NCBI GenBank assembly: GCA_027026295.1 | Contig: JALVOR010000013.1 | Span: 1 to 21,344 of the forward strand | Length of the DNA stretch: 21,344 nt | Source: Anaerolineales bacterium | GTDB taxonomy: Bacteria; Chloroflexota; Anaerolineae; Anaerolineales; DRMV01 | Reading direction: 5' to 3' | Program-made: the position numbers and the translations under genes | Part shown: positions 10,182 through 21,344 of the stretch, one piece after another | How positions within the stretch are numbered: the stretch's first letter is position 1 | Layout: each line of letters starts with the position of its first letter | The notes under the pieces: model-generated | What the model was told of the DNA's origin: nothing | The model's input: the letters and a program-made list of their open reading frames with translations, nothing else | Database searches by the model: none

Positions 10182-11288
10182 TTAGTAACGCAGCAGCGCC
10201 CCGATGTGGCCGATTTCTTCCAGCGGGCGCGGCACCATTTCGACTTCGGCGCCTTCATCCAGCGCCCGGTGGACAATCATCTCCACCGCGTCGGGCACTT
10301 CCTCGAACCTGCCGCCGCAGAAGGGGCAGGTTTCCAGTGCCTGCGTCGTGGGAAAGCCACACGAGGTGCAGCGGTAGCCCGCTTCCTGATAGCCTTCTTC
10401 GGCGACCACGATGTGCGCCCGCCCTTCATGGACAGCGCCCAAGGTCTCATCCAGCCCCACCACGGCAAGGCCGCCCTTGGCGGCTTCCACGCGGATGCGC
10501 TCGACGAGGCGGGCTTCCTGCCGACGTTCGGCTTCGGCGCCGATTTCCATGGCTTTTTGCCATACCTCGGCCCGTCCGGCTTTCATCTCCATGGGGAAAG
10601 TACCCACCACCAGGCTCTGCCACCGCTTTGGCAACATCTTGCGGAAGAGGGCAATGTTCTCTTCGCTGCCGCCGATGAGCACGCGCCGCACCTTGTGCGT
10701 GTTGAAGAAGCGCACCGCGGCTTGCGCCGCATGGCGCATGTTACGCTCAATGACTTCCTCGATGTAATTATCCAGCCCAGGCGCGCCAACCCGCCGCCCC
10801 GGGGCAGATGAACCGCCGCCCGCTTTCACCTTGCGCACCTCTTCGCCCTCAACGCCTTCCTCTTCTTCCAACACGCCGAGGTGGAACACGAAGAAGCGGG
10901 CGCGGGTCTTGTCGATGAGCACCACGCCATAGTGCCCGTAAGCATCAAAGAGGGAAACCAGCGGGCGGATATAGGGGTGGCCGCCTTCCCAAAACAGGTC
11001 GCGCAACCTTACCTGCATCACATACACACGGAAAAAACCGGCATCCTCCGAGGCAAACACAGCCACGCCCCGCCCGCTCCAGTCGTGGTTTTCGTTGAAG
11101 TAGCGCATCACGGCGTCGGCGTTCGCCTGATTGCGGGCTTTCTTAAGCATCGCCCGCAAACGGGCGCGGTGGTCATTGGGGTTGCCGAGCGTGGGATCGG
11201 TGTTGAGGTACACCGAAAGTACTGACGGCTCGAAGGTGAGTCCAGCAAGTTCACGTAAATCCTGAACGGTTACGACGTGTTCTGCCAT
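10182..11288 (-). CDS. Archaeo-eukaryotic release factor-like protein (BaeRF), GGQ-less
   Basis: This 368-residue protein resembles the bacterial homologues of archaeal/eukaryotic RF1 (BaeRF). An N-terminal part (VLSVYLNTDPT, ARLRAMLKKAR) leads to a middle domain where the GGQ loop would lie before the NYIEEVIERNMRHAAQAA helix. The loop reads GGGSSAPGRR (G157-G159, S160, S161), so the catalytic glutamine is absent. The C-terminal eRF1-like domain (RRVLIGGSEENIALF) carries a zinc ribbon, C307-X2-C310-X10-C321-X2-C324. The ATG at 11288 follows GGAGG; an in-frame extension to 11321 has no such support. It lies 54 bases behind htrA on the same strand. Lack of GGQ argues against peptide release. 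A ribosome-binding stress role like that of Balon is inferred. Confidence 0.8.
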   Translation of the reverse strand: MAEHVVTVQDLRELAGLTFEPSVLSVYLNTDPTLGNPNDHRARLRAMLKKARNQANADAVMRYFNENHDWSGRGVAVFASEDAGFFRVYVMQVRLRDLFWEGGHPYIRPLVSLFDAYGHYGVVLIDKTRARFFVFHLGVLEEEEGVEGEEVRKVKAGGGSSAPGRRVGAPGLDNYIEEVIERNMRHAAQAAVRFFNTHKVRRVLIGGSEENIALFRKMLPKRWQSLVVGTFPMEMKAGRAEVWQKAMEIGAEAERRQEARLVERIRVEAAKGGLAVVGLDETLGAVHEGRAHIVVAEEGYQEAGYRCTSCGFPTTQALETCPFCGGRFEEVPDAVEMIVHRALDEGAEVEMVPRPLEEIGHIGALLRY

Positions 11289-11342: not shown

Positions 11343-12560
<1,218 letters not shown>

Positions 12561-12581
12561 GGGAATATCTCCTTGAGCATA

Positions 12582-12616
12582 GAAGTTAAAACTTCTGCGC
12601 GCCTCGCGGCGCGCAG
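12582..12616 (-). promoter_or_regulatory. Tandem hairpins in the dnaJ-htrA gap
   Basis: Read on the minus strand, CTGCGCGCC-GCGA-GGCGCGCAG (12616-12595) forms a 9-bp stem capped by a GNRA tetraloop. The palindrome GAAGT-TTTA-ACTTC (12595-12582) follows at once. There is no long T tail, so it looks more like a partial terminator, attenuator or RNA-processing site than a full stop. It lies 22 bases upstream of the htrA ATG. Confidence 0.5.
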
Positions 12617-12628
12617 GGAGGGAAATCA

Positions 12629-13594
12629 TCACCGCAGGTGCGCCAACTCGGTGAACAGTTGACGTTCACGCGGCGAAAGTTTGGTCGGAATGTTGACTTT
12701 CACATGAACGTACAGGTCACCGTGCCTGTCAGGGTTCTTCAGATGCGGCATACCGCGCCCGCGCAGGCGGTAAATCTGCCCCGGCTGGGTGCCGGGCTTG
12801 ATGGAAAGCAGTACATCGCCGCCTGGCGTGGGCACTTTCACTTCGCCGCCCAGCACAGCAGTGTAGAGGTCCACAGGCACTTCGGTGTGCAGGTCATACC
12901 CTTGCACGTCAAAGCGCGGGTCGGGCATCACTTCCACCACCAGGTAGAGGTCGGCCTTGCGCCCGTCGGGCAGGGGCACGGCCTCGGGCAGGCGAATTCT
13001 GGTGCCGGTGCGCGCGCCAGCGGGGATTTTGACCTCCAGGCGGCGTCCGTTCACCGCGATGTGGCGGGTCGAACCGTGGTAGGCTTCCTGCAGGGTGATT
13101 GCAATGGGCTGCTCATACGCCGGCTTGCGCGGCTGACGCCGCTGGCGCGTGGCGCGTCCACTGCCCACGCCGCCCATCCCGGCAGCGCCCATATCGCCAA
13201 AATCTGCCCCGCCGAAACCGCCAAACAGGTTGCGGAAGAAGTCAGAGAACCCGCCAATGCCACCCAGCAGGTCGTCCAGGTCGCGGAATTCCACCCGCAC
13301 GCCGCCCTGAGGCACACCACCGCCCCACGCGCCCCAATCGAAAGGCGCCTGCCCGCCGGTGGCCTGCCAACGCTGGTAAGTGGTGGAAAACTGGTCATAC
13401 TTGGTGCGCTTTTCCGGGTCGGAAAGCACCTGATAGGCCTCGTTGATTTCCTTGAATTTTTCCTCGGCGGCTTTGTCGCCGGGGTTGCGATCAGGGTGAT
13501 ATTGCAAAGCCAGTTTGCGGTAGGCTTTCTTGATTTCATCCGCACTGGCGTTACGACTCACACCCAATATCTTGTAATAATCCTTGTATTCCAT
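12629..13594 (-). CDS. DnaJ-like co-chaperone, CbpA type (no zinc finger)
   Basis: This Hsp40 partner for DnaK has 321 residues. A J-domain (about residues 3-70: [11 protein letters not shown], with HPD at 33-35) is followed by a Gly/Phe-rich linker ([26 protein letters not shown]) and two C-terminal substrate-binding beta domains ([44 protein letters not shown]). The CXXCXGXG zinc-finger repeats of true DnaJ are absent, which makes it CbpA-like (DnaJ type II). I prefer the ATG at 13594 ([10 protein letters not shown]), with GAGGTG just upstream; a GTG at 13600 in the same frame is an alternative. It is the first gene of the presumed stress operon with htrA and the BaeRF gene. Confidence 0.93.
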
Positions 13595-13641
13595 GGGCAC
13601 CTCGCTACGATGTGTTCCTTAAAGGGTTCGCCCCTGTTTAG

Positions 13642-13671
13642 ATTGTACGAGAGGCGCGCCTCAAAAGTCAA
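13642..13671 (-). promoter_or_regulatory. Sigma-70-type promoter of the dnaJ-htrA-baeRF unit
   Basis: On the minus strand TTGACT (13671-13666), an 18-base spacer and TACAAT (13647-13642) precede dnaJ by about 48 bases. The spacer holds a perfect 12-bp palindrome, GAGGCGCGCCTC (13651-13662), a possible operator. No CIRCE element was seen. Confidence 0.7.
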
Positions 13672-13720
13672 GCAAGGCACATCTTTCTAACAAAACTCTA
13701 ATTGCCCAAAGGCGGTTTCC

Positions 13721-13751
13721 TTGCACCCATTGCCCCAATTTGTGCTAATAT
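13721..13751 (+). promoter_or_regulatory. Candidate promoter for hpf
   Basis: TTGCAC (13721-13726) is followed by an extended -10, TG-C-TAATAT (13743-13751), with a 19-base spacer. It lies 45 bases before the hpf ATG. Confidence 0.5.
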
Positions 13752-13796
13752 AAAAACAACAATGCCCGCGTGCCATCGGCAAAACAAGGAGGTTCT

Positions 13797-14345
13797 ATGA
13801 GCGCCGAGATAGAAATCCACACCAAGAACCTGGAACTCACCGACCGATTGCAGGATTACATTGACAAGAAAGTACCCAAACTCACCCGCTACATTCAGGG
13901 CATTCTCTCCACTCGTGTTGACCTGAAGCACGAACCCTCTGCTCGCAACGCCCAGCACCGCTATGTGGCACAGATTACGGTGCGGGGCAAACGGTTCATC
14001 CTGCGGGCCGAAGAACGTTCCGACGACATCTTCACTGCGCTAAACGCTGCACTGGACAACGTCCAGCGGCGCATCCGTCGCTACAAGGAACGTTACTACC
14101 GCGACCGCGGCGAGGAAACCCGCGCTGCCGAATACGCGCCGCCCGAAGAGGAAACCGAGCAGCACGCCATCGTGCGCCGCAAGCACTTCGCCATGTCGCC
14201 AATGGACGAAAACGAAGCCATCGAACAGATGGAAATGTTAGGGCACAATTTCTTCATCTTCTTCAACGCCGAAACCAACAACATCAACGTGATTTACAAA
14301 CGGCGCGATGGCTCCTATGGCCTGATCGAGCCCGAACTGGACTAA
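13797..14345 (+). CDS. hpf: Ribosome hibernation promoting factor, long form
   Basis: The 182-residue protein has an N-terminal HPF/RaiA domain (about residues 1-105: EIEIHTKNLELTDRLQDYI, with a basic C-terminal helix RRIRRYKERYYR). A short acidic linker leads to the C-terminal dimerisation domain (about 125-182: IVRRKHFAMSPMDENEAIEQMEMLGHNFF, INVIYKRRDGSYGLIEPEL). Long HPFs block the mRNA/tRNA channel of the 30S subunit and join two 70S ribosomes into 100S dimers in stationary phase. The ATG at 13797 follows AAGGAGG closely; an in-frame GTG at 13770 lies upstream of that site and is unlikely. It diverges from dnaJ. Its TAA stop (14343-14345) is also the target repeat of a 178-bp element. Confidence 0.95.
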   Translation: MSAEIEIHTKNLELTDRLQDYIDKKVPKLTRYIQGILSTRVDLKHEPSARNAQHRYVAQITVRGKRFILRAEERSDDIFTALNAALDNVQRRIRRYKERYYRDRGEETRAAEYAPPEEETEQHAIVRRKHFAMSPMDENEAIEQMEMLGHNFFIFFNAETNNINVIYKRRDGSYGLIEPELD

Positions 14346-19902: not shown

Positions 19903-21344
19903 ATGCTTGACAAATTCATGAGCCGCAAAGGCCTTTACACGGCCTTTTGGATTGTCGCCATCATCATGGTGAGCGCACTGATTTACTACACCGCCAACCT
20001 GCAGCGGGAAGTTCCCCCCATCCCGCAACAGGTGGTTTCCGCTTCAGGTGATGTGCTTTACACCAAAGACGACGTCATCAAAGGCAAAGGCTACTTCCAG
20101 GAATTCGACCTGATGGACTGGGGCACCATGCTGGGCATGGGCGCTTACATGGGCCCTGACTTCACCACCGAGTTCCTGCACCACCGGGCAGAGTTCCTTT
20201 ACGATTACTATGCCAAGCAGATGTACAACAAGTCCGCGTCGGCGCTTACCGACATTGAGCGGGGCGCGGTCAAAGAACAGGTCAAGGAAGACTTCCGCCA
20301 GGAAACCGCGCTTTCGGAAGGCACCACCACCTACACCGACGCCTCGGCAGAAGCCTATCGGGAAAACGTCAAGCGCCTGACCGACATGCTGGTCAACGGC
20401 GACAAGGAACGGGCCTTCCCCGGCGGCGTGATCACCCCGCAGGAAGCCAAGGAAATCGCCGCTTTCGTGGACTGGTCGCAGTTGGTGGCTTCCACCTTGC
20501 GCCCCGGCGCCGACCGCACCTGGTCGAACAACTGGCCTCATGAGCCGCTCATCGACCAGAATATCGGCTGGTACAGCCACTTCGTCTCCCTGTGGGAGTT
20601 CCTGCTGCTGTGGACGCTGACCATCGTGGTTATTTACCTCGCCTACGAATACATTTTTGCCAAAAAGGACGAGGAAAAACTGGAACCCACCCTCAAGGTG
20701 ACTTCACTGTTCCCTTCGCAGAAGAAACTGCTGAAATACATCCCCATCGTTTCCGGTTTCTTCCTGCTGCAACTCATCATCGGCGGCTACCTGGCCCACC
20801 TCTACGCCGACCCCACCGCGAACTTCGTGGTGTCGCAGAAGTTGTTGCCTTTCAACGTCATCCGCTCGCTGCACACCCAGATCGCCATCCTGTGGGTTGC
20901 CATCGGCTGGCTGGTGGGCGGCTTGCTCATCGCGCCGTGGGTGGCTCAAAAGGACCACAAATATCCCTGGCTGGTGGACGTGCTCTGGGGCGCGCTGGTG
21001 GTCGTCGGCCTCGGCGCAGTGGCTGGCCTCTACTTGGGCGCCACCGGCCACCTGCGCGAGACCTGGTTCTGGTTCGGCAACGAAGGCCGCGAACTCATCA
21101 ACTTAGGCCGCTTCTGGGATATCGGCCTGGTGGTCGGCTTGGTGTTCTGGTTCCTGCTGATCGTTTCGCTCATCCGCAAGAGCGCCACCAACAACCCCCT
21201 GGTGGGCACCATCATCTGGTCGGCTTTCGCCATCGCCACCCTCTACATCGCCGGCATGATGCCGCTGACCAAGGTGATGCCCAACTTCACGGTGGACGAT
21301 TACTACCGCTGGTGGGTGATTCACCTCTGGGTGGAACTCACCTT
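19903..21344 (+). CDS. norZ: Quinol-dependent nitric oxide reductase, N-terminal 480 residues (3' end outside window)
   Basis: It reduces 2 NO to N2O with quinol electrons in the membrane and belongs to the heme-copper oxidase superfamily. An N-terminal membrane helix (about 10-32) precedes a large periplasmic domain (about 35-220) with qNOR landmarks GMGAYMGPDFTTEFLHHRAEFL and NNWPHEPLI. No CXXCH heme c motif is visible, as expected for a quinol-type single-subunit enzyme. Membrane helices follow from about 228, with H324 in RSLHTQIAILW, GRFWDIGLVVGLVFW, and at the very edge RWWVIHLWVE, giving H474 and E478 at the positions of a non-heme iron (FeB) ligand and a conserved glutamate. The reading frame is open to the window end. 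The ATG at 19903 has AAGGAGG 5 bases upstream. Likely role: NO detoxification or partial denitrification. Confidence 0.93.
   Translation, partial: MLDKFMSRKGLYTAFWIVAIIMVSALIYYTANLQREVPPIPQQVVSASGDVLYTKDDVIKGKGYFQEFDLMDWGTMLGMGAYMGPDFTTEFLHHRAEFLYDYYAKQMYNKSASALTDIERGAVKEQVKEDFRQETALSEGTTTYTDASAEAYRENVKRLTDMLVNGDKERAFPGGVITPQEAKEIAAFVDWSQLVASTLRPGADRTWSNNWPHEPLIDQNIGWYSHFVSLWEFLLLWTLTIVVIYLAYEYIFAKKDEEKLEPTLKVTSLFPSQKKLLKYIPIVSGFFLLQLIIGGYLAHLYADPTANFVVSQKLLPFNVIRSLHTQIAILWVAIGWLVGGLLIAPWVAQKDHKYPWLVDVLWGALVVVGLGAVAGLYLGATGHLRETWFWFGNEGRELINLGRFWDIGLVVGLVFWFLLIVSLIRKSATNNPLVGTIIWSAFAIATLYIAGMMPLTKVMPNFTVDDYYRWWVIHLWVELT

Follow-up and report, generated by a model that had tools for sequence, protein, structure and literature searches.

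A protein of baeRF family 10, encoded by an Anaerolineales bacterium and related to the factor that terminates translation in archaea and eukaryotes, lacks the putative catalytic glutamine that many members of its family carry. As the product of a proteostasis operon, it probably works at the A site in the manner of Balon, without hydrolysis. The DNA analyzed (21,344 nucleotides, contig JALVOR010000013.1 of assembly GCA_027026295.1; hereafter, the window) and comparison with relatives established the family membership, the three-domain sequence similarity, the absence of the glutamine, the constraint on the affected loop within the genus and the conservation of the gene cluster. The more interesting fact is that orthologues about half identical to the window protein, with the same gene neighbors, still carry the putative catalytic glutamine. 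The features concerned are collected in Table 1.

Table 1. Features of the window around the family-10 gene.
Feature	Positions	Strand	Basis and remarks
Zinc ribbon (C307, C310, C321, C324)	10308..10379	-	Within C-terminal domain; alignment
Q-less baeRF family 10 CDS	10182..11288	-	368 aa; ORF call, Pfam match, conservation
Middle domain, RNase H-fold, eRF1_2-like	10542..10976	-	PF18854 match
Loop at catalytic-loop site, residues 155-175, KAGGGSSAPGRRVGAPGLDNY	10764..10826	-	Alignment
HtrA/DegP-type trypsin-like protease with PDZ domain	11343..12632	-	Upstream, 54-nt gap to family-10 gene; domain matches
DnaJ/CbpA-type co-chaperone (J domain, DnaJ_C)	12629..13591	-	First gene of presumed operon; domain matches
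Sigma70-like promoter match 5′ of DnaJ	13642..13671	-	Consensus match only, 10 of 12
Long-form ribosome hibernation promoting factor (HPF)	13797..14345	+	Divergent from operon; domain match

The ORF was confirmed to be real and conserved. On the minus strand it extends from an ATG at 11288 to a stop codon at 10182-10184 (368 aa), with a Shine-Dalgarno sequence (AAGGAGGTG) close 5′ of the ATG. Family-10 matches were found in 99 of 251 order-level genomes, including the window's own; two of them (G011, 29% identity, and G025, 26%) are weak and distant and about ten are partial, the remaining relatives being full-length and 36-77% identical to the window protein. An alignment over the loop was possible for 96 order-level sequences, that of the window among them. 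One family-10 gene and no second was found in the window genome (assembly 82.5% complete). The gene was present in 9/9 genomes of g1, g2, and g3 and in 0/9 genomes of the genera g4 and g5 of the window's family; no relative was found in the viral contigs searched. In three genomes of g82 (L154, L156, L157), the family-10 frame stops after ∼260 residues and the C domain is missing, with an in-frame TAA within the match in two of them; in the fourth (L152), it is full-length.

Against Pfam, the window protein scored 132.9 bits for baeRF_family10 (PF18854; gathering cut-off 27.1), the kind of profile search by which the earlier note had proposed that its assignment be checked; baeRF families 2 and 3 matched more weakly. 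Msmeg1130 of Mycolicibacterium smegmatis (NF052288; PDB 8v9j, 8v9l), a Balon homologue whose structure was solved on the ribosome, belongs to the same Pfam family (124.7 bits) and, like the window protein, has three domains and no GGxSQ. Balon of Psychrobacter (AOC03_06830, NF052287) and Rv2629 (NF052289; 8v9k) are members of the same superfamily but more distant. For the corresponding NCBIfam equivalogs, the window protein reached 84.8 bits versus a cut-off of 480 (MSMEG_1130), 64.7 versus 320 (Rv2629), and 36.5 versus 330 (AOC03_06830). Because the PF18854 match is clear and the three equivalog cut-offs are missed by far, it is supported that the protein works like Balon, but not that it is Balon. 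The earlier note's designation of a candidate Balon-type hibernation factor was upheld as far as the family of Msmeg1130, the missing glutamine and the stress operon are concerned, but not at the level of equivalogs. The aRF1/eRF1 model TIGR03676 gave 52.3 bits versus a cut-off of 234.7, and PF18859 (acVLRF1) gave no match to the window protein at E up to 1.

Searched with the single sequence, solved structures yielded Msmeg1130 (E 0.0064) and archaeal aRF1 (E 0.022) and no others. The profile built from 38 relatives (alignment A1) matched Msmeg1130 (8v9j) with E 1.4e-20 over positions 8 to 369 of 369 and Rv2629 with E 7.6e-9, and it aligned with aRF1 (4af1) and eRF1 across the middle and C-terminal domains. 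The eRF1-like domain order that had been read from the sequence was thereby corroborated, and the four zinc-ribbon cysteines were found at the residues named earlier (Table 1). All four occur in 86 of the 88 full-length order-level proteins, window included; some are missing from the alignment in L131 and L152. Archaeal aRF1 also has zinc-ribbon–like cysteines; aRF1 and eRF1 differ from the window protein in having GGQ and NIKS. Neither motif is found in the window protein, which corresponds to Balon-type factors, and N[ILV]KS is missing from the first 110 residues in 96/96 order-level proteins (some partial). Balon and Rv2629, too, have three domains and neither GGQ nor NIKS (PMC10901736). 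Structure prediction from two sequences gave a mean pLDDT of 44.4, too low for comparing the lasso loop, the bL27 trap, and the EF-Tu-contacting insertion of Balon-type factors. By the sequence comparisons, the architecture is that of a three-domain, aeRF1-like protein.

At the site of the catalytic loop, the window protein reads GGGSSAPGRR, and GGQ occurs nowhere in it. Its S161 occupies a column that, across the 96 order-level proteins, is Q in 53, S in 23, A in 10, T in 5, G in 2, and K, L, or R in one each. The loops of the Q-bearing proteins are mostly GGGSQ. According to Burroughs and Aravind (2019; PMC6514570), GGxSQ is the motif of aVLRF1 and acVLRF1, the glutamine is the catalytic residue across the superfamily, and family 10 is a notable baeRF family for its well-conserved, potentially catalytic glutamine. 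The window protein does not have this trait, which is not required for Pfam membership. The earlier note had GGGSSAPGRR in place of the GGQ of RF1; the glutamine is indeed missing, but the motif lacking in comparison with many relatives is GGxSQ, not GGQ. A GGQ-bearing loop in close homologues, which the note had said would refute its own reading, is partly borne out, since 53/96 order-level proteins carry Q in a GGxSQ-type loop and the same paper describes a conserved glutamine for the family: Q-bearing proteins are 43-53% identical to the window protein, but its seven nearest relatives with the loop seen (66-77% identity) are all Q-less. In the sister genus g3 (L066, L067), the loop is GQSSS, with a Q outside the family column, and was scored Q-less. 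The 63 best-scoring matches outside the order, two of which gave no profile-matching ORF, added 61 proteins from elsewhere in the phylum, classified by pattern as 32 Q-bearing (22 of them GGWSQ) and 29 Q-less, the call being doubtful for about five (L045, L055, L168, L193, L194); their loops are more varied than the order-level ones. Chloroflexota family-10 proteins with GGGSQ (in the order) or GGWSQ (elsewhere) carry the glutamine that the window protein lacks. In open-licence PMC literature, no paper on loss of the glutamine within family 10 was found.

In the window's genus, the loop without Q is maintained rather than decaying and is strongly constrained. Among six species of the genus (one partial), 14 amino-acid–changing and 124 synonymous-only differences were counted in 315 comparisons of loop codons, versus 912 and 1095, respectively, in 3660 comparisons over the remaining residues 5-269. 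The stretch 155-173 ranked 2nd of 349 for identity within the genus and 15th once sister genus g3 was included. Strong constraint is established for the window's genus only, because the loops of all 43 Q-less order-level proteins are together not conserved above the level of the protein as a whole (0.458 versus 0.485); in Q-bearing order-level proteins, the values are 0.676 for the loop versus 0.562. The loop spans 24-26 residues in 42 of the 43 Q-less proteins and 24-29 in the 53 Q-bearing ones.

That another residue, or a rearranged loop, substitutes for the glutamine and the protein is still an active peptidyl-tRNA hydrolase is improbable. Catalysis in the superfamily is ascribed to the glutamine (PMC6514570), and the 43 proteins without it have S, A, T, G, K, L, or R in its column, which is unlike a single chemical substitute. 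Nevertheless, the window loop retains GG-x-S, the constraint within the genus and the length found in Q-bearing orthologues, with which the protein also has its gene neighbors in common. In addition, no backup by acVLRF1 is apparent: 0/251 order-level genomes, the window's own included, contain one above the cut-off, and one lies below it. acVLRF1 (PF18859, NF041024), matched by 5/38 aligned members, shares GGxSQ with Q-bearing family 10, whereas the window loop is GGGSS; according to PMC6514570, acVLRF1 has no N domain.

To follow the glutamine through the family, trees were built without the loop columns (a quick tree of 113 rows and a careful one of 57 rows), and on both, Q-bearing and Q-less proteins are clustered yet intermixed. 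The quick tree requires 11 changes between Q and non-Q, at least four of them forced by starred branches; the careful tree requires seven, at least five of them so forced. A single clade was rejected by the AU test on the quick tree for the Q-less order-level proteins (43 rows, p 1.5e-72) and likewise for the Q-bearing ones (53 rows, p 4.8e-45). On the 57-row tree, the nesting of a Q-less row among Q-bearing ones is best supported for L119 (sister to L109) and for L150, and less securely for L079. The window falls within a Q-less clade of 33 rows on the quick tree (SH-aLRT 87); the backbone of the careful tree is unresolved, with the Q-less L167 and L176 basal. Within the window's own clade, the glutamine may either have been lost or have been absent from the start. 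As the best reading of these alignments and trees, family 10 appears to have changed its catalytic glutamine repeatedly.

The family-10 gene is the last of three genes on the same strand, in the order DnaJ, HtrA, family-10 gene. The DnaJ frame overlaps that of HtrA by 4 nt if the start of HtrA is its GTG, and co-transcription of the three genes is inferred. Of the 42 other Q-less order-level loci, 41 have DnaJ and/or HtrA upstream in the same orientation, as do 38 of the 53 Q-bearing ones; when the 3 of 95 loci with too little flank are set aside, the figures are 41/41 and 38/51. Among the 63 best-scoring matches outside the order, such a neighbor was found in 11/29 Q-less and 1/32 Q-bearing loci, but seven of these 11 belong to one family, f36, and the HtrA match of L161 is weak. 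In f36, a Q-less family-10 gene is followed by DnaJ in 7/8 loci examined, and HtrA is added in both long-flank loci; its members (L052, L054, L058, L059, L061, L162, L166) have an unrelated, longer loop and the trio in a different gene order. Fisher's test for loss of the glutamine versus DnaJ/HtrA gave p 0.0004 (order) and 0.0008 (rest of phylum), relatedness being ignored, whereas a tree-based pairs test with three supported pairs gave no signal. The correlation is therefore suggestive only, and no association was detected with relatedness taken into account. The cluster by itself does not imply a non-catalytic role, because orthologues in the same cluster keep GGxSQ. The Q-bearing loci L070, L075, L078, and L084, which have no DnaJ/HtrA, lie near genes that look by eye bacterioferritin-like, Hsp20-like, and response-regulator–like. 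An exact CIRCE heat-shock element was found in 0/200 loci. The stress-gene context of Balon-type factors is provided in the window by DnaJ and HtrA; PMC10901736 places Balon genes elsewhere next to stress genes including DnaJ.

The constancy of the cluster also bears on the very improbable alternative that the protein has only the fold of aeRF1 and works off the ribosome, as an RNA-binding or adaptor protein of a DnaJ/HtrA proteostasis module. In Q-less order-level loci, the DnaJ/HtrA neighbors are indeed more constant than the catalytic residue. However, K155 (95 of 96 order-level proteins), G157 (95), R182 (90), and N183 (96) as well as the zinc cysteines are near-invariant in Q-bearing and Q-less proteins alike, as expected if the same contacts to rRNA and GTPase are kept. 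Furthermore, HtrA has an apparent signal/lipobox start (by eye) and would act outside the cytoplasm.

The earlier note's statement that the neighbors agree with hibernation holds for the DnaJ/HtrA stress operon but not for HPF. The divergent HPF gene in the window resembles the RaiA neighborhood of Balon genes, but in fetched flanks (tblastn E 1e-6; no more than 6 kb on either side and far less near the ends of contigs), HPF lies beside the family-10 gene in 0/97 order-level loci, and relaxing the search to E up to 10 produced chance-level matches only. As the adjacency is not conserved, HPF was rejected as a supporting neighbor and is not usable as evidence. Six of seven relatives asked (five members of the genus and one genome of a sister genus) have HPF elsewhere, with no DnaJ, HtrA, or window-type histidine kinase within ∼1.5 kb of it; near the HPF gene of one of them (L206), a sigma-70–type gene is 48% identical to the window's. 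The junction between HPF and DnaJ (13592-13796) was seen in this genome only and stems either from a rearrangement at this site or from an assembly that joined two unrelated neighborhoods. At 19903-21342, the window contains the apparent start (by eye) of a quinol-dependent nitric oxide reductase that is truncated where the contig ends.

Besides SmpB, the window genome (G000) contains two genes with an RF-1 domain that have the size of release factors, so ordinary termination does not depend on the family-10 protein. All 12 genomes checked have at least two RF-1-domain genes, and three of them (G013, G065, G241) have a further short RF-1-domain protein. SmpB, an ordinary rescue factor found in 12/12 of these genomes, speaks against a Pelota/Dom34-like role, in which the protein would enter the stalled A site with a GTPase and split or clear ribosomes rather than preserve them. 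So do the findings in PMC10901736 that Msmeg1130, the solved family-10 member, inhibits translation and that ribosomes and Balon homologues sediment together in the absence of EF-Tu. Such a role is rather unlikely, despite the fact that Pelota is likewise a Q-less relative of aeRF1, weakly matched over part of its length by the 38-relative profile (3oby, E 2.9e-5), that a DnaJ and HtrA cluster suits protein quality control as well as it does hibernation, and that relief of stalled ribosomes has been proposed for baeRF proteins by Burroughs and Aravind (PMC6514570).

The analogy to Balon is held, with moderate confidence, to be the most likely account of the function. Balon-type factors were described in 2024; the structure listed as PDB 8rd8, although under a different molecule name, is presumably Balon. 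By this analogy, the window protein, a member of baeRF family 10, would be a ribosome factor that is shaped like a tRNA and linked to stress. It would place its N domain near the decoding center without reading stop codons and extend its middle domain toward the peptidyl-transferase center, with a translational GTPase such as EF-Tu opposite the C domain. For want of a glutamine in the loop to position water, the A site would be occupied and the nascent chain not released, as with Balon and Msmeg1130, and ribosomes would be protected or silenced while DnaJ and HtrA of the cluster handle damaged protein. We infer binding to the ribosome, the position in the A site, the contact with EF-Tu, and hibernation over another non-catalytic role. 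The contacts to the ribosome may differ from those of Msmeg1130, since the window protein keeps GG (as GGG-S) and an aRF1-type zinc ribbon, the four cysteines of which Msmeg1130 does not have in the alignment. The comparison with Msmeg1130 concerns the protein only, whereas the window gene is seen together with DnaJ and HtrA. The loop of Msmeg1130 holds AGQ, its alignment to the window loop being ambiguous; hence, absence of Q is not a clean rule for hibernation factors.

A protein without the glutamine in a family in which many have it matters because Msmeg1130, an A-site–binding translation inhibitor described as a ribosome hibernation factor in PMC10901736, also belongs to family 10. Tentatively, the orthologues, which are mostly single-copy and mostly part of one DnaJ-HtrA-baeRF10 cluster, may switch repeatedly between a GGxSQ peptidyl-tRNA hydrolase serving rescue and a Q-less plug of the A site serving hibernation; in the window's genus, the loop without Q would then be under new, strong constraint. 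If such switching is true, Balon-type hibernation factors would be pseudo-release-factors with several origins from rescue hydrolases. The presence in one and the same cluster of orthologues that have the putative catalytic residue and others that lack it offers a ready comparison for whether hibernation factors are inactivated rescue enzymes, and such pairs address the relation of Balon-type factors to catalytic release factors. An aeRF1-like factor tied to DnaJ and HtrA would, in addition, link the protection of ribosomes with protein quality control.
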